Source of the DNA: Xylanibacter rarus
Lineage (GTDB): Bacteria > Bacteroidota > Bacteroidia > Bacteroidales > Bacteroidaceae
Length of the DNA: 64,000 nucleotides
Reading direction: 5' to 3'
NCBI RefSeq assembly: GCF_001275135.1
Contig: NZ_LFQU01000007.1
Span: 58,299 to 122,298, forward strand
Of this stretch, positions 11,515 to 54,518 are shown piece by piece (the stretch's first letter is position 1; each line of letters begins with the position of its first letter). The notes below the pieces were generated by a model. That model was not told where the DNA came from and did no database searches. It saw nothing but the letters and a program-made list of their open reading frames with translations. Position numbers and translations under genes: made by a program.

Positions 11515-11956
11515 AATTTGGCTATTTTGCAAGCTTCCAACCTGTTTTATTAAAAAAATGCATATCTAGTGCAATCTATACTTTTTATCCTTAAATGTGT
11601 TTGTTCTAATGAAATTTAAGGTTATAATGCAGCTTGTGTGTTGTATATATCAGGAAGTGAATATAAATCCTGTATTTATTGTTTTATTCTGAAGGTTATA
11701 ATTTTGTCTTATTTTTGATAGTATTTTACGGCTGGTCAATGGATAAATTATGTCAAGTATTATTTTTACTGTTTTTTAGAGATGCTAAACGTTAAAGTCT
11801 AGTTACCTCATAATTGTTGTTCTTAATAGGTCATAAATGGTGCCTTGACATTTTTGATGTATGGTTATTTTATTCTATTGTGTCAGATAAATTTATTTTA
11901 TAATGATGTATGTTTATTGATTTAATTTTTATTAATCAATGTTTATTGGTTGAAAG

Positions 11957-12044
11957 TTATGAAGTAATTGATTTTGATGAACTAATTCAGTTATTTTTAC
12001 CATAAAAATCATTGAGTTTTAGGGTAAAAACAACTGAATTATAT
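11957..12044. repeat. Array A of a 22-bp degenerate repeat
   Basis: Four consecutive 22-bp units start at 11957, 11979, 12001 and 12023. They share the same register and core (TAAAAnTCAnTGnTTTT) as the arrays at 41247 and 52658. The best copy is unit 3, with ATAAAAATCATTGAGTTTT. Units 2 to 4 can also pair as a long hairpin (AATTCAGTT with AACTGAATT, TTTTTACC with GGGTAAAAA). The remaining gene-free DNA at 11515-12238, between converging ppiD-like and carbonic anhydrase genes, is AT-rich. I see no open frame, tRNA or IS end in it. Confidence 0.6.
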
Positions 12045-38879: not shown

Positions 38880-41045
38880 ATGATGAATGCTGCTTCCGAG
38901 CAGGCAATGGCTTGGGATATAATAGAAAATACCGGGGCAAATCTTTTTTTGACCGGTAAGGCTGGAACAGGTAAAACAACGTTTCTCAAGGAAATAAAGA
39001 ACAAATCAACTAAACGGCTTGTCGTGCTCGCTCCTACAGGTATTGCTGCAATAAATGCAGGAGGAGTAACCATTCATTCCTTCTTTCAACTTCCTCTGTC
39101 TCCTTATGTGCCTGGAGCTACCTTTGGAGGTGAAGATCAAAAGTATTATCGTTTCAGTAAGGTTAAGCGTAACATAATACGAACCATGGACTTGCTTGTT
39201 ATTGATGAAATAAGTATGGTACGTGCAGATTTGCTTGATGCAATAGATTCCGTAATGAGACGATACCGTGACCATGGAAAACCTTTTGGCGGTGTACAAC
39301 TGCTGATGATTGGCGATCTGCAACAGCTTGCTCCCGTTATAAAAGATGAAGAATGGGCAATGTTGAGCAAGTATTATCCGACACCTTACTTTTTTTCAAG
39401 CAAGGCTCTTAATGCTGCAGAGTATCATACTGTTGAGCTTAATACCGTATACAGACAGCAAGATGAAACGTTTATCTCTCTCTTGAATCAGATACGGGAG
39501 AATCGTGCTACAAATGAAACATTGTCAGCTTTAAACAGACGTTATATTCCTGATTTTATTCCAGAGAAAGACAGCGATTATATTCGTTTGACGACACATA
39601 ACAATCCGGCACATATGATAAATGACAGGGAACTGTCATTGTTGCCTTCGCGTGAATATGAATTTAAGGCTGAGATTGAGGGGGATTTTCCTGAAACTTC
39701 ATATCCAGCCGATGTTAATTTGGTTCTAAAACAGGGAGCGCAGGTTATGTTTATTAAAAATGACCCAGAGAAACGTTTCTTTAACGGTATGATTGGCGAA
39801 GTGGTGTCATTGGATGAAAGTGCTATTATTGTCAGAGATAAGAATGGAGGAGAAAGCTTCAATCTTGAAAAATCAGAGTGGGCAAATGCCAAGTATACTA
39901 TAGATGAAACTACAAAAGAAATAACAGAAACTGTAGAAGGTGTTTTCAGACAGTATCCTTTACGCCTTGCATGGGCTATAACAATACATAAAAGCCAGGG
40001 ACTGACTTTTGATCATGCTATAATAGATGTTTCACATTCGTTTGCACACGGACAGGCATATGTTGCATTAAGTCGCTGCAGAACTCTTGACGGAATGGTG
40101 TTGAGTGCCCCTTTACAACGTGATGCCATAATCAGTGACAGTACTTTGGATGCATATATTAACACTATCGACAAGCGTGTTCCGTCTGCAGAAACATTAT
40201 CAGCTTTGCATAATTCTTATGTTATACAGTTGTTGGACGAATTGTTCGATTTTTCGTCATTGAAGTCTTCGTTTGATATGTTGTTGAGAACGCTTGATGA
40301 GCATTTGTATAAAAAATATCCGAAACTCTTGGCTGAATATAAACGTATAGGGCTGTCGTTTGAGCGCATTATTGATGTGTCATATCGCTTTAAAATACAA
40401 TATACAAGAATGTTGCATGCAAATCCTGATATAAGCAGCCCTGATATTCAGACGAGGATACATAAAGCTGCAGCGTATTTCTCTGAAGAGATGAAGGTTT
40501 TCACCTTGTTGTGCAACAAAACAAAAGTTGAGATTGAGAATAAGGCTGTTAAAAAACAGTTTGATGACAGATATAGTGTCTTCTTCAGGGATATAGAACT
40601 AAAAAAACAGCTTTTCATACATGCGGAAGACAATAATGTTGAATTTTCAATACCGAATTATCTCCGGATAAAATCGAAGATATTATTGAGTATTGATGAT
40701 GGTGGAAAGAAAATAGTAAAGGCAAGAAAACCAAAGACAGTGAAAGAGCCGAAGATACCAACTTATAAAATTAGCTATGACATGTTTTCTTCTGGTATGA
40801 CAATAGAGCAGATTGCTAAAGAAAGAGGACTTGTTTATGGCACTGTATTTGGACATATTGCCCGTTATGTTGAGGCTGGTGAACTTGAGATGGATCGTCT
40901 TGTACCTGAGGAGCATATAAAAGCTATAAAGACTTTTATTATTAATAATCCAAATAATAGGTCCGTAAGTGATATATATTCAGGTGTCGGACCGGATGTT
41001 ACGTATAACGAAATACATCTATATCTTAAAATGTTTGGTGAATAA
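38880..41045 (+). CDS. PIF1/RecD-like DNA helicase with C-terminal helix-turn-helix
   Basis: The 721-residue superfamily 1 helicase has Walker A LTGKAGTGKTTFLKEI (about 19-34), LAPTGIAAINAGG, Walker B LLVIDEISMVRADLLDAID (about 103), LMIGDLQQLAPVI and a UvrD-like C-terminal motif LAWAITIHKSQGLTFDHAII followed by YVALSRC. The last 110 residues hold an HTH_40-like module (FSSGMTIEQIAKERGLVYGT) of the type fused to Bacteroidota helicases. Its likely job is unwinding DNA during repair or fork restart; the specific substrate is unknown. It is the last gene of the rsmA strand run and faces htpG across a shared terminator. Confidence 0.9.
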   Translation: MMNAASEQAMAWDIIENTGANLFLTGKAGTGKTTFLKEIKNKSTKRLVVLAPTGIAAINAGGVTIHSFFQLPLSPYVPGATFGGEDQKYYRFSKVKRNIIRTMDLLVIDEISMVRADLLDAIDSVMRRYRDHGKPFGGVQLLMIGDLQQLAPVIKDEEWAMLSKYYPTPYFFSSKALNAAEYHTVELNTVYRQQDETFISLLNQIRENRATNETLSALNRRYIPDFIPEKDSDYIRLTTHNNPAHMINDRELSLLPSREYEFKAEIEGDFPETSYPADVNLVLKQGAQVMFIKNDPEKRFFNGMIGEVVSLDESAIIVRDKNGGESFNLEKSEWANAKYTIDETTKEITETVEGVFRQYPLRLAWAITIHKSQGLTFDHAIIDVSHSFAHGQAYVALSRCRTLDGMVLSAPLQRDAIISDSTLDAYINTIDKRVPSAETLSALHNSYVIQLLDELFDFSSLKSSFDMLLRTLDEHLYKKYPKLLAEYKRIGLSFERIIDVSYRFKIQYTRMLHANPDISSPDIQTRIHKAAAYFSEEMKVFTLLCNKTKVEIENKAVKKQFDDRYSVFFRDIELKKQLFIHAEDNNVEFSIPNYLRIKSKILLSIDDGGKKIVKARKPKTVKEPKIPTYKISYDMFSSGMTIEQIAKERGLVYGTVFGHIARYVEAGELEMDRLVPEEHIKAIKTFIINNPNNRSVSDIYSGVGPDVTYNEIHLYLKMFGE

Positions 41046-41246: not shown

Positions 41247-41334
41247 TTTGAAACTAATAGACTTTTAAGGTAAAAGTCAATGATTTTTGATGTAAAACTC
41301 AGTGGTTTATTATGTGAAAAACAGTCAAATTAAT
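41247..41334. repeat. Array B of a 22-bp degenerate repeat
   Basis: Four adjacent 22-bp units start at 41247, 41269, 41291 and 41313. Units 2 and 3 are the clearest: GTAAAAGTCAATGATTTTT and GTAAAACTCAGTGGTTTA. The common core TAAAAnTCAnTGnTTTT sits at the same place in each unit and in arrays A and C. The rest of the gene-free stretch 41046-41503, between the converging helicase and htpG genes, holds only AT-rich DNA and the terminator at 41403. Confidence 0.65.
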
Positions 41335-41402
41335 TAGCTTAAACACAAGATTAGGAAAAATGATTGCTGAAGATGAAGATCTATTCTTGATAAAACAAAA
41401 AT

Positions 41403-41450
41403 AAAATACACCCAAGCTTGAGTTAAAACTTAAATGCTTGGGTGTATTTT
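41403..41450. terminator. Bidirectional terminator between the helicase gene and htpG
   Basis: A perfect 15-bp stem, AAAATACACCCAAGC with GCTTGGGTGTATTTT, closes an 18-base loop. A T-run follows on both strands, as expected between converging genes. Confidence 0.9.
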
Positions 41451-41503
41451 TTTATAAGTTGAGTTAATTGATTTTATGTTGCAAAGTGTTACAACGCTGT
41501 TTC

Positions 41504-43558
41504 TTATTTTATTAAAGAAACAGAACGTTTAATAAATGCATCGAGGGATGATCCTTTCAGCATGCCGTTCTGAAGCAGAGCCAAGTCTATTAGCTGATGC
41601 ACAATTTTGTTATCTTTAGCGTATTCTGAGATGATTTGGTTCTTTTTCTCACGTTGTTCGTTTAATGCTTTTTCTGTATTTGCAAGATCATCCTTTTCTT
41701 CTTGAGTAATTTCTTCCGGCTTTTTCTTGCTTTGATTCTGATGTAGAGCTGCAAGGCGTGCTTGTTGACCCTTTATTTCGCTGATTACAGGGTTAAGAGC
41801 ATCACTGCATTTGCTGGTTTCATCATCAAGAATATTTTTTATGAGCTTATGATCGCTGTTCAGAACAAGACTATAGCTGTCTGGCATCTGAGCATAGAAA
41901 CTCATTCCGCTTTGGAAACGGCTTATGTCTTTCATTCTGCGCATATACTCACTTTGAGTGATCATTACAGGCATGCCATTCTCTCCCAGGGCTTGAACTT
42001 CAATATTGAATTCAACTTTGTTAATTTTAGGCATCTGTGAACGGAATGCTGCTGACAAATTGTCGGCTTGATCGCTGTCAAGTTCTGTCTTCTTGACATC
42101 ATCTTTGACAATAAGACGGTCTATAATATCGCTGTCTACGCGCATGAATCTGCTCTTCTCAAATTTCTGCTCAAGCATTGAAACAACAGGAACATCGAGC
42201 TGTCCGTCAAGCAACAATACACTATATCCCTTATCTTTTGCAGCTTCAATATAAGAATATTCTTCTTCTTTATTGTTTGCATAAAGATAAATAAGCTGTC
42301 CGTCTTTGTCTGTCTGATTGTCTTTTATTAATTGTTTGTATTCGTCAAATGTGAAATATTTGCCTTCAACATCTTTCAACAGTGCAAAGTCCTTAGCCCT
42401 ATCATAGAAATCCTCTTGAGACAGCATACCGTAATTTATGAAAAGCTTCAGGTCATCCCATTTGCTTTCATAATCTTTGCGGTTTTCTTTGAATATGCTG
42501 TTGAGTCTGTCTGCAACTTTTTTAGTAATGTATGTAGAGATCTTCTTTACGTCTCTGTCACTTTGCAGATAGCTTCGACTTACGTTTAGAGGTATATCCG
42601 GAGAATCAATTACTCCGTGTAATAGTGTAAGGAATTCAGGAACTATGCCTTCAACTTGATCTGTTACGAATACCTGATTGCAGTATAGCTGTATTTTATT
42701 ACGCTGAAGTTCAATATTAGACTTGATGCGTGGGAAATATAATATACCTGTTAGGTTGAATGGATAGTCTACATTAAGATGTATCCAGAACAGAGGTTCA
42801 TCCTGCATAGGATAGAGTTCGTTGTAGAACTTTTTGTAATCCTCGTCCTTAAGCGTACTTGGAGTTTTTGTCCATAACGGCTCTACACTGTTTATTATAT
42901 TGTCTTCTTCTGTTTCAACTTGTTTTCCGTCTTTCCATTCTGTCTTTTTGCCAAAAGCTACAGGAACGGGCATAAATTTGCAATATTTGTTTAGCAGAGA
43001 CTGTATGCGTGCCTTTTCCAAAAATTCTTTACAGTCATCGTCAATATGAAGTATTATATCTGAACCTCTATCTGCTTTTTCTGCATCGTCTATTTCGTAT
43101 GCCGGACTGCCGTCACAGCTCCATTTAACCGCTTTTGCTCCGTCTTTGTAGCTCTTTGTTATGATTTCCACCTTGTTGCTGACCATAAACGAACTATAGA
43201 AACCAAGTCCAAAATGTCCGATTATCGCATTGGCATTGTCTTTATATTTATTAAGGAAATCATTAACACCTGAAAATGCAATTTGGTTAATATATTTGTC
43301 AATCTCCTCTTCTGTCATACCGATGCCTCGGTCGCTGATTGTAAGTGTGTTGTTTTTCTCGTCGAGAGTAACACGTACCGTCAAATCGCCAAGTTCACCT
43401 TTGAATATTCCTTTATCAGCAAGTGTTTTTATTTTCTGTGTTGCATCTACAGCATTGCTTACCATTTCACGAAGGAATATTTCATGGTCTGAATACAAGA
43501 ATTTTTTGATGACGGGGAAAATGTTTTCTGTTGTAACCCCAATATTTCCTTTTTGCAT
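41504..43558 (-). CDS. htpG: Molecular chaperone HtpG (Hsp90)
   Basis: HtpG is the bacterial Hsp90, an ATP-dependent homodimeric chaperone. The 684-residue protein shows the GHKL ATPase motifs SDHEIFLREMVSNAVDATQK (about 18-37, with the catalytic Glu), LTISDRGIGMTEEEI and NAIIGHFGLGFYSSFMVS. The middle domain has FWIHLNVDYPFNLTGILYFP and the catalytic-loop Arg in LNVSRSYLQSD. A highly charged stretch before the dimerisation domain (SKKKPEEITQEEKDDLANTE) is typical of Bacteroidota. I use the ATG at 43558, since homology begins at MQKGNIGVTTENIF; the 23 residues before it look untranslated. Confidence 0.96.
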   Translation of the reverse strand: MQKGNIGVTTENIFPVIKKFLYSDHEIFLREMVSNAVDATQKIKTLADKGIFKGELGDLTVRVTLDEKNNTLTISDRGIGMTEEEIDKYINQIAFSGVNDFLNKYKDNANAIIGHFGLGFYSSFMVSNKVEIITKSYKDGAKAVKWSCDGSPAYEIDDAEKADRGSDIILHIDDDCKEFLEKARIQSLLNKYCKFMPVPVAFGKKTEWKDGKQVETEEDNIINSVEPLWTKTPSTLKDEDYKKFYNELYPMQDEPLFWIHLNVDYPFNLTGILYFPRIKSNIELQRNKIQLYCNQVFVTDQVEGIVPEFLTLLHGVIDSPDIPLNVSRSYLQSDRDVKKISTYITKKVADRLNSIFKENRKDYESKWDDLKLFINYGMLSQEDFYDRAKDFALLKDVEGKYFTFDEYKQLIKDNQTDKDGQLIYLYANNKEEEYSYIEAAKDKGYSVLLLDGQLDVPVVSMLEQKFEKSRFMRVDSDIIDRLIVKDDVKKTELDSDQADNLSAAFRSQMPKINKVEFNIEVQALGENGMPVMITQSEYMRRMKDISRFQSGMSFYAQMPDSYSLVLNSDHKLIKNILDDETSKCSDALNPVISEIKGQQARLAALHQNQSKKKPEEITQEEKDDLANTEKALNEQREKKNQIISEYAKDNKIVHQLIDLALLQNGMLKGSSLDAFIKRSVSLIK

Positions 43559-43905
43559 AGCTATATGTATTTTAAATGTATTTTTGTAATAAGTAATCGT
43601 CAAATCAACTTGCAAATACTGTGCCATAATTGTCGCTTACTTTTATTGTTATTAATTAAGTGCGGGAGATCATTATTGCTTTTGTTATTCGTAATAATAT
43701 CTGCCTGACATTTTGAAATTAGATATAAGTAATGATTACGGCTATTGCTTTAATAAAATATTATTGATAATTAATTGATTGTCAGATGGCTGTGTTTTAT
43801 TGCTAGAGATTCTGCTTTTTGTAAATGCTGTTGGCTATAACTTTTTTAGATGTTTCAAAACAATTTGAATTTGTATACGGCAGGAATAAATAGATTGATT
43901 CATTT

Positions 43906-52657: not shown

Positions 52658-52745
52658 ATTATTAGTGATTGAGTTTTTGCCCATAAATCAGTTGTTTTTA
52701 ATCCAAAAGTCATTTGTTTAATGGATGTATTTCATTGGTTTCTTT
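52658..52745. repeat. Array C of a 22-bp degenerate repeat
   Basis: Four adjacent 22-bp units start at 52658, 52680, 52702 and 52724. The clearest cores are ATAAATCAGTTGTTTTT and CAAAAGTCATTTGTTTA. Register and core agree with arrays A and B. The rest of the 731-base gap (52318-53048) between clpC and the beta-helix gene holds the clpC terminator and AT-rich DNA. I find no gene, tRNA or IS in it. Confidence 0.6.
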
Positions 52746-53048
52746 CGAAGAAAAGGCAGAAATGTTTTTTATTAGAAGATGTATAGTGAAGCATAAATGA
52801 TAATATACAGATTTGCGCTTGTCATAAATAATGAATTACATACAGAAAAACATAAGTCTGTTACTGCTGTATTTGTCATTTCAAGTCGTATGTATTTATT
52901 CGGTGCCCCCTTTAATAGGGACATTGATAATGTTGAATAAGCAAGAACAAGGATTTATTGTTATTTTGTGAAATAATGTTCTATAAGGAATGAAATAATT
53001 TCTTTCAAATTAAGTGCAATATAATATTTCAAACATCGTTATATAATC

Positions 53049-54518
53049 ATGAAGATAAAAAATATTATTTCACTAATAAGTTTTCTTTGTCTGTTTGTGT
53101 CGTGTACAGACGATGATTCTTTTTCATTGTCAAAATCTGACATATTGACATTTTCAACTGATACGATAAGTATGGATACCATTTTTTCAACGGTTCCAAC
53201 TTCTACACGTACATTTTGGGTTTATAATAAGGCTGGCGACGGGATACGATGTACAAAGGTTAGATTAGCTCGTGGAAACCAGACTGGATTTAGAATAAAT
53301 GTTGACGGAGAATACCTTAGCCCGACGTCAGGGTATCAAATTTCTGACGTAGAGATCCGTAAAAATGACAGTATAAGGGTATTTGTTGAATTAACATCTC
53401 CGGAAAACGGAAAGCAGGAGCCTCAACTGCTCGAGGATGAGCTTGTTTTCCTTTTGGAAAGTGGGGTAGAGCAGAAGGTTGCTTTAAACGCTTATACGTG
53501 GGATGCCAATTTACTGAAGAATGTGTATGTGCAAAATGACACTACTATCGGAACAGACTCTAAACCGACTGTAATTTATGGTGGACTGACGGTTGACAGC
53601 TGTGCTACATTGAATATAGCAGCCGGAACAACTTTGTATTTTCATGGTGATGCCGGAATTAATATATATGGCCGTATGATATCTGAAGGTACGGCAGATA
53701 GAAATATTGTGCTTCGTGGTGACAGACTGGATAACATGTTTGACTATCTTCCTTACGATAATGTCAGTGGTCAGTGGCAGGGAATCCGTTTCTATGGTTC
53801 TTCTTACGATAATAAAATCTGCTATACAGACATTCATAGCACATTTAATGGTATTGTTTGTGACTCTTCTGATGTATCGAAGGTTAAACTTCAATTACTT
53901 AATAGTACAGTTCATAATTGTCAGGGATATGGCGTTAAATCTGAAAATTGTTCAATAGAGATACGTAACAGCCAAATAACCAATACCTTAAATGATTGTG
54001 TGGCAATATTTGGCGGCAGTGCAATAATACAACAATGTACATTGGCACAGTTTTATCCATTTGACTCTAATCGCGGAGCTGCTCTGTATTATTCTAATTT
54101 TCAGGGTGAACGTTATATGCCGTTGTTAAAGATGGATTGTCTGAATAGTATTGTTACTGGCTATGCAAACGATGTAATAACTGGTGCGAAGATGGATGAT
54201 GAAACGAAAGAGTTTAATTATAGATTTGTGAACTCATTATTGCGTACACCAGAAGTTACGGACGATGAGAATATAATTAATGTGGCTTTCGAGAATGTTG
54301 AGGACACTTCAGCTGTATCAGGAGAAGAAAACTTTGTTTTAGTTGATATAGACAAACAGAGGTATGACTTTCATCTGAACGAAAAATCTCCGGCTATAAA
54401 CACTGCTGCGATAGAATATTCCTTGCCTGAAGACCGTGACGGAAGACAAAGAGATGAACTCCCGGATGTTGGTTGCTATGAATATTTTAAAGATCCGACA
54501 AACAACGAAAATGAATAA
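53049..54518 (+). CDS. Surface or periplasmic beta-helix lipoprotein
   Basis: The 489-residue protein has a lipoprotein signal (FLCLFVSCTDDD; Cys about 18). The first 170 residues form a beta-sandwich-like region (DTISMDTIFSTVPTSTRTFW). A right-handed parallel beta-helix follows, with short repeated turns ending in Asn, Asp or Cys: DSCATLNIAAGTTLYFHGDA, GQWQGIRFYGSSYDNKICYT, then HNCQGYGVKSENCSIEIRNS. The C-terminal motif SPAINTAAIEYSLPEDRDGR is typical of Bacteroidota beta-helix surface proteins. Such proteins often bind or cut polysaccharide, but no catalytic residues are evident. It is 14 bases upstream of cdd, so the two may share a message by chance of position. Confidence 0.8.
   Translation: MKIKNIISLISFLCLFVSCTDDDSFSLSKSDILTFSTDTISMDTIFSTVPTSTRTFWVYNKAGDGIRCTKVRLARGNQTGFRINVDGEYLSPTSGYQISDVEIRKNDSIRVFVELTSPENGKQEPQLLEDELVFLLESGVEQKVALNAYTWDANLLKNVYVQNDTTIGTDSKPTVIYGGLTVDSCATLNIAAGTTLYFHGDAGINIYGRMISEGTADRNIVLRGDRLDNMFDYLPYDNVSGQWQGIRFYGSSYDNKICYTDIHSTFNGIVCDSSDVSKVKLQLLNSTVHNCQGYGVKSENCSIEIRNSQITNTLNDCVAIFGGSAIIQQCTLAQFYPFDSNRGAALYYSNFQGERYMPLLKMDCLNSIVTGYANDVITGAKMDDETKEFNYRFVNSLLRTPEVTDDENIINVAFENVEDTSAVSGEENFVLVDIDKQRYDFHLNEKSPAINTAAIEYSLPEDRDGRQRDELPDVGCYEYFKDPTNNENE

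Follow-up and report, generated by a model that had tools for sequence, protein, structure and literature searches.

Array B lies between two convergent genes of the window, as we call the whole 64,000-nucleotide stretch of DNA that was analysed. On its left is a PIF1-like helicase gene with an HTH_40 domain and on its right htpG (HSP90), with a terminator-like inverted repeat and T-run standing between the array and htpG (Table 1). The initial annotation had described a row of four in-register 22-bp units here, and four such units are present, the frame having been set 2 bp too early. In the layout of the unit, the A-tract occupies positions 3-6 and the T-tract positions 14-17; scored against this A4/T4 framework, units 1 to 4 reach 6, 7, 6 and 6 of 8, so the tracts are not strict. 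The claim that a common core stands at the same offset in every unit was overstated: the 14-nt core TAAAAnTCAnTGnTTTT is found with 0 and 1 mismatches in units 2 and 3, but with 4 and 5 in units 1 and 4.

Table 1. Positions of the arrays and of the features flanking array B, numbered along the window.
Feature	Position	Strand	Basis
Array A, four units	11956..12043	-	matrix, autocorrelation, fold
PIF1-like helicase gene with HTH_40 domain	38880..41045	+	
Array B, four in-register 22-bp units	41249..41336	+	matrix, autocorrelation, sequence inspection
Array B unit 1	41249-41270	+	
Array B unit 2	41271-41292	+	
Array B unit 3	41293-41314	+	
Array B unit 4	41315-41336	+	
Terminator-like inverted repeat and T-run	41408..41453	n/a	by eye
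htpG (HSP90)	41504..43627	-	
Array C, four weaker units	52660..52747	+	matrix, autocorrelation

Phasing of the three arrays

A matching unit and register had also been reported in two other intergenic regions, making twelve units, and four units can be fitted to each of arrays A, B and C, the last being the weakest. Phasing was scored by a letter-free autocorrelation over the 15 intergenic regions of at least 100 bp in the window. At a lag of 22, the array B region scores 42 of 66 and ranks first of the 15, other lags from 15 to 30 giving at most 32 there; array A scores 40, and neither value is reached by any of 300 sets of shuffled intergenic DNA. Array C scores 36, a value reached by 23 of the 300 sets. 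With a 22-column matrix built from 57 units of other species, arrays A, B and C take the first three ranks among the 15 regions and are reached by 0, 0 and 1 of 400 shuffled sets, respectively. Only a period of 22 fits, other periods being far worse, and the absolute score of array B is just 1.0 bit, with a null mean of maxima of -36.5. The search pattern that yielded the units of this matrix came from the core of the initial annotation, which makes the letters dependent on that core; the spacing was left free.

A chance register of AT-rich intergenic DNA is scarcely credible as an explanation of arrays A and B. It would agree with the abundance of the single core, for which the window shows no enrichment when up to three mismatches are allowed (47 matches against 39 expected, reached by 16 of 100 shuffles), and with the A4/T4 framework taken alone, where arrays A and B score 25 of 32 and are reached by 8 of 300 shuffled sets, array C being unremarkable. 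It does not account for the autocorrelation and matrix scores of arrays A and B, however, nor for the whole-genome search, in which a pair of units 22 bp apart, with up to three mismatches allowed, is matched 7 times over 5 places, two of these places being arrays A and B, and the backwards-read control gives none. The enrichment is one of the phased 22-bp arrangement and not of the single core. Array C alone could still be a chance register; it forms no hairpin in the fold test and its predicted curvature is small. The 489-aa reading frame that adjoins it (53049-54518) has no Pfam match at E 0.001.

The wider family of arrays

When one genome per species (84,980 genomes) was scanned for two cores with the spacing left free between 15 and 29 bp, 31 stretches were recovered: 17 at 22 bp, 6 at 21 bp and 8 at other spacings. 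All but one of the 22-bp stretches (16/17) are titled Prevotella, Hoylesella, Prevotellaceae or Bacteroidaceae, the remaining one being Clostridiales, and 3/6 of the 21-bp stretches come from one Tannerella genome bin. This bin (Tannerella sp. MAG Im510_bin41; L035, L042 and L043) holds longer arrays, whose period is 21 bp and whose core is AAAAGTCAGTGCTTTTG; in L035 they run to at least 10 consecutive units. Two stretches from rumen Bacteroidales (L018 and L027) carry two-unit CAAAATCAnTGATTTTG palindromes that are 22 bp apart and mutually inverted, and these may be another feature.

A 66-column model was then built from 37 three-unit windows of the core-scan stretches and of G046, none of them from the window's genome (G000); G046 is identical to the record Prevotella sp. 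BV3P1 where the two were compared (L016 against L008), and the pair was counted once. On the window's genome, with 150 of 1627 candidates scored, the model gives at least 97 matches at E ≤ 10 and at least 21 at E < 0.01, array B being the last among the latter (0.00985). Many of the better matches are spelled otherwise, as GCAAAA, a 7-mer, TTTT and 5 nt. The TCAnTG core of the initial annotation is one spelling, and the constant part of the wider family is A4-N7-T4. The family unit is A4-N7-T4-N7, usually present in four copies (88 bp) and sometimes in five, with A- and T-tracts alternating at 11-bp steps in the array core, and the arrays almost always sit between genes. With a gap of 0-14 bp allowed between two A4N7T4 modules, 66 of the 78 matches in the window's genome have a gap of 7, which corresponds to 22 bp; in such counts one array may hold several matches. 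Most fetched arrays have four units (23/37 by the threshold used). In six sampled species, with lengths of 1-13 bp allowed, the junction is 7 bp long in 211/222 cases and the word in 144/145.

The 7-bp words vary among species at a nearly fixed spacing, and form a limited set with reverse-complement partners, for example GGTATGC/GCATACC and GGCCGTC/GACGGCC. The description of the units as repeated copies of one site applies to the TCAATG-type arrays of the Hoylesella group, whose units resemble tandem copies and change by whole units, but not to the array-rich species studied, where the words differ and tend to be reverse complements. Orthologous arrays can differ by exactly one 22-bp unit. 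This family of intergenic arrays supports the earlier suggestion of a non-coding element that is dispersed and phased at exactly 22 bp, and array B is best called an AT-rich, degenerate or variant member of it.

Of the 150 genomes sampled from the genus, 17 hold at least 20 strict two-unit matches, the highest counts being 481 (G084) and 360 (G017), and 115 hold 0-3, from which it follows that the element is dispensable. The backward control of the two-unit pattern was not used as a null, because the control is itself part of a longer array and is high in the same genomes. Beyond the genus, the matches listed for 217 genomes of the order are mostly AT-rich and equalled by the controls, and the other two members of the window's family have 0 matches. 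A genome from another family of the order (G175) has 22 strict two-unit 22-bp matches and 0 in the backward control, unlike the AT-rich genomes surrounding it. The two-contig genomes G132 and G146 have about 10 matches each, with GC-word arrays (GGGCACC, GACGCCC) mixed among AT-rich chance matches.

Gene context, word pairing and folding

In 480 kb of G084 we found 42 arrays, 39 of them with exactly four units. No array of this set overlaps a long ORF; this and the other gene contexts rest on longest-ORF calls and are approximate. The arrays occupy 17 convergent, 22 tandem and 3 divergent gaps, and the 67 array-free gaps of at least 200 bp comprise 10 convergent, 36 tandem and 21 divergent. 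Divergent gaps are avoided (3/42 vs 21/67, Fisher p 0.004) and convergent gaps enriched (17/42 vs 10/67, Fisher p 0.006). In the window's genome, where one array overlapping a 205-codon ORF and one at a stretch edge were left out of the gap tests, arrays occupy 9 convergent, 21 tandem and 5 divergent gaps; divergent gaps are avoided here as well (5/35 vs 13/32, p 0.03), but the convergent enrichment is not significant (9/35 vs 5/32, p 0.38). A role in partition or at the terminus, raised in the initial annotation, received no support from a light test, the arrays along the 480 kb being oriented 23 one way and 19 the other. A terminator separates gene and element at 22/56 gene ends in G084, and at 16/25 of those with more than 120 bp of room, and lies within 160 bp of 13/46 element-free gene ends. 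Relative to the gene ending towards the element, the orientation is the same in 31 cases and opposite in 25.

The words within an array are paired beyond expectation in some species. In the window's genome, exact reverse-complement pairs number 11 against 3.5 in free shuffles (0/500 reach this) and 8 against 3.09 when positions are kept (8/1000), and pairs complementary in at least 6/7 positions number 21 against 11.05 in position-preserving shuffles (1/1000). The near-complementary excess falls on word pairs 1-2, 3-4 and 1-4, in a test covering 23 arrays of which 8 had their orientation guessed. The first word has an exact partner in 11/12 oriented arrays of G017 (shuffle mean 8.07, fraction 0.038), after 6/18 candidate arrays with weak units were dropped, and in G084 its exact pairing is at shuffle level (18/40 vs 18.33). 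The alignable parts of G084 and G017 are about 90% identical, and at 4/5 orthologous places compared the arrays remain 88 bp without an indel and the words have changed as blocks; in one such change the first word went from GCGGCTC to CCGTAGG and another word to its reverse complement, CCTACGG. At the fifth, the array is truncated to three units and in opposite orientation. Word pairing is real in some species, and could have its origin in selection or in template-switch mutation.

Such pairing would be expected of an RNA element: once transcribed, the array would form one or two stem-loops and thereby protect messages, process them or bring them to an end. The mean RNA fold z against dinucleotide shuffles is strongly negative (-5.9 in the window's genome, n=23; -4.97 in G084, n=14), the excess of near-complementary words and the compensatory whole-word changes between the sister genomes point the same way, and array A contains a long hairpin formed by its units 1 and 3, counted along the minus strand, with a fold z of -8.07 for that strand and -4.09 for the plus strand. 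Arrays B and C, however, do not fold, and in G084 the first-word pairing at shuffle level is accompanied by a word-swap fold z of -0.1. A GC-rich stem with a T-run, our home-made criterion for an intrinsic terminator, is found in just 3 and 2 of the 42 G084 elements on the two strands, and that identity was rejected. No Rfam family was matched either: the window and 14 loci gave nothing at the gathering threshold except a tRNA in L017. Moreover, a hairpin of neighbouring units needs no fixed 7-bp junction, and the elements frequently lie beyond a terminator and in either orientation. We consider an RNA element unlikely.

A candidate DNA site and its known counterparts

The fixed junctions, the avoidance of divergent gaps, the lack of orientation bias and the frequent intervening terminator favour a role as DNA over one as RNA. 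We tentatively propose, with somewhat less than even confidence, that the array is a bent, hairpin-capable DNA site of a putative protein. The element would act as DNA, its phased tracts bending the array and its modules all facing one side of the helix. The putative protein would bind these modules in a dimer-like manner, with A4/T4 outside and the word inside, and complementary words may form a hairpin or cruciform under supercoiling. The array would then mark the chromosome between transcription units, either structurally or for the handling of supercoils, and the species-specific words would reflect a drifting preference of the partner protein. A similar role is ascribed to enterobacterial BIMEs. 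For array B, the protein binding to one helical face that the initial annotation envisaged is possible.

Predicted curvature is consistent with the bent-site proposal: a dinucleotide wedge model gives z of -4.25 (n=23) and -5.05 (n=39). For the family as a whole a 21-bp spacing would bend more than 22 in this model, and an account of the 22-bp spacing must therefore call on contacts with a protein or on the 11-bp repeat of supercoiled DNA; for array B, 22 bp is the best of ten variants tried. Complementary words would be no less expected of an RNA hairpin, or of template-switch mutation.

A serious rival to a protein site is a dispersed repeat of PINSR- or MITE-like kind, selfish or neutral, that has spread in some Prevotella lineages and is decaying, its spacing kept by whole-unit gain and loss and by shared ancestry. 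PINSR is a published intergenic repeat of Prevotella intermedia/nigrescens, 188 bp long and present in two strains of P. intermedia at 177 and 184 copies; it was found by PCR only in one clade, and section 3.4 of the paper does not mention 22-bp modules. The G084 element is likewise intergenic and dense (42 copies in 480 kb). In its first 14 copies the sequence in common extends from about 48 bp ahead of the array to 55 bp past it, giving a length of about 190-215 bp with the short imperfect inverted ends TGTAAAKATWWTTC. It matches two P. nigrescens records, one of them at 15 places and the other at 2 (79% and 72%). These replicon matches and the copy density indicate that the G084 element is very probably PINSR, as set beside the published description and not the consensus letters. 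The 22-bp architecture differs from PINSR in recurring in further species of the genus with other words, and array B, which has no blastn match in the plasmid collection that contains PINSR-like copies, is not filed as PINSR. A plasmid, phage or viral source was rejected: the two P. nigrescens replicons are the only matches of the G084 element in the plasmid collection, the phage collection has none, and the two-unit core occurs in two viral contigs of identical local sequence with no longer array.

A selfish or neutral repeat would explain why match counts range from 0 to 481 across genomes, why the G084 copies have a region and ends in common, and why orthologous arrays differ by a whole unit, and PINSR itself was published without an assigned function. 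It sits less well with words that differ strongly between species at constant spacing, and with copies that persist at orthologous places; the PINSR paper describes about three-quarters of its copies as common to two strains, and its authors report no terminal inverted repeats. A cognate transposase was not identified, PF01797 being the family searched, and of MITE features the G084 copies show the imperfect inverted ends, but the comparison of orthologous places revealed no clean empty site from which to read a target-site duplication. The avoidance of divergent gaps can also be explained by purging of harmful insertions and is not decisive. We regard a repeat of this kind as possible, if somewhat doubtful.

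Several known systems resemble the arrays in part. The REP/BIME repeats of enterobacteria, as generally described (PMC2817692), are likewise numerous, dispersed, palindromic and intergenic, but the modules of the Prevotella-type arrays are fixed at 22 bp. A RAYT-linked REP was rejected, since PF01797 (RAYT-type transposase) is absent from 5/7 of the most array-rich genomes searched (G000, G084, G017, G039, which is 81% complete, and G078) and its presence in 19/40 genomes, array-poor ones included, does not follow array number. BrickBuilt of Porphyromonas gingivalis, in a related family, is described as a MITE in which tandem repeats of similar length lie within a larger dispersed intergenic element (PMC4596501); it differs in its 23-nt repeats and IS-like ends, a comparison of descriptions and not of repeat letters, and the same paper also notes tandem repeats of 22 nt in strain W83. 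Phased A-tracts and the approximately 11-bp genome periodicity, linked to bending and nucleoid compaction in the accounts given (PMC3940949, PMC4132750), have A/T tracts at a like distance, but as a diffuse statistical signal, whereas the 22-bp arrays are discrete elements with exact spacing. The units are contiguous and degenerate, with no near-identical repeats separated by unrelated spacers, and a CRISPR array was rejected. In the literature covered on Prevotella, Porphyromonas and PINSR repeats and on A-tract periodicity, with subscription papers mostly outside, we found no account of 22-bp modules.

A more far-reaching form of the protein-site proposal, which we think rather unlikely, is that the arrays are genus-wide modular nucleoprotein sites, each usually built of four exact 22-bp modules, in which the 7-bp words differ between species like dialects and, at orthologous places, co-change in complementary pairs. 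A co-evolving trans-acting factor would recognise up to hundreds of such sites and so organise or insulate the chromosome between transcription units. If the protein-site proposal holds, PINSR, taken as peculiar to a single Prevotella clade, would be one dialect of a larger family that is recognisable by spacing only and missed by sequence similarity; the dialects would suggest a partner protein, to be traced by comparing array-rich with array-poor genomes, and the arrays would offer countable, mutable sites for asking what phased A-tracts do in bacterial chromosomes.

Array B itself retains a predicted curvature in the dinucleotide wedge model (z -3.53), with no hairpin (fold z -0.72 and -0.67). 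The flank motif CTGATNATCAANNNGTTACA, found at 12/16 or better beside 17/37 arrays of the window's genome, is not beside array B, where 10/16 and 9/16 are at chance level. We infer that array B is a weak site or relic that has kept its phase and predicted bend and lacks the flank motif and hairpin. It could not be traced through relatives, because neither a close helicase nor a helicase-htpG pair is found elsewhere: at E ≤ 1e-60 the helicase matches 0 other genomes among 398, the nearest helicase C-terminus found in another genome is only 41% identical, and an htpG match is absent from all other helicase loci fetched. In another species (G010), at a locus that htpG does not adjoin, a PIF1-like helicase gene is closely followed on its 3' side by a hairpin-bearing 22-bp array of five units (L238:1343-1452).
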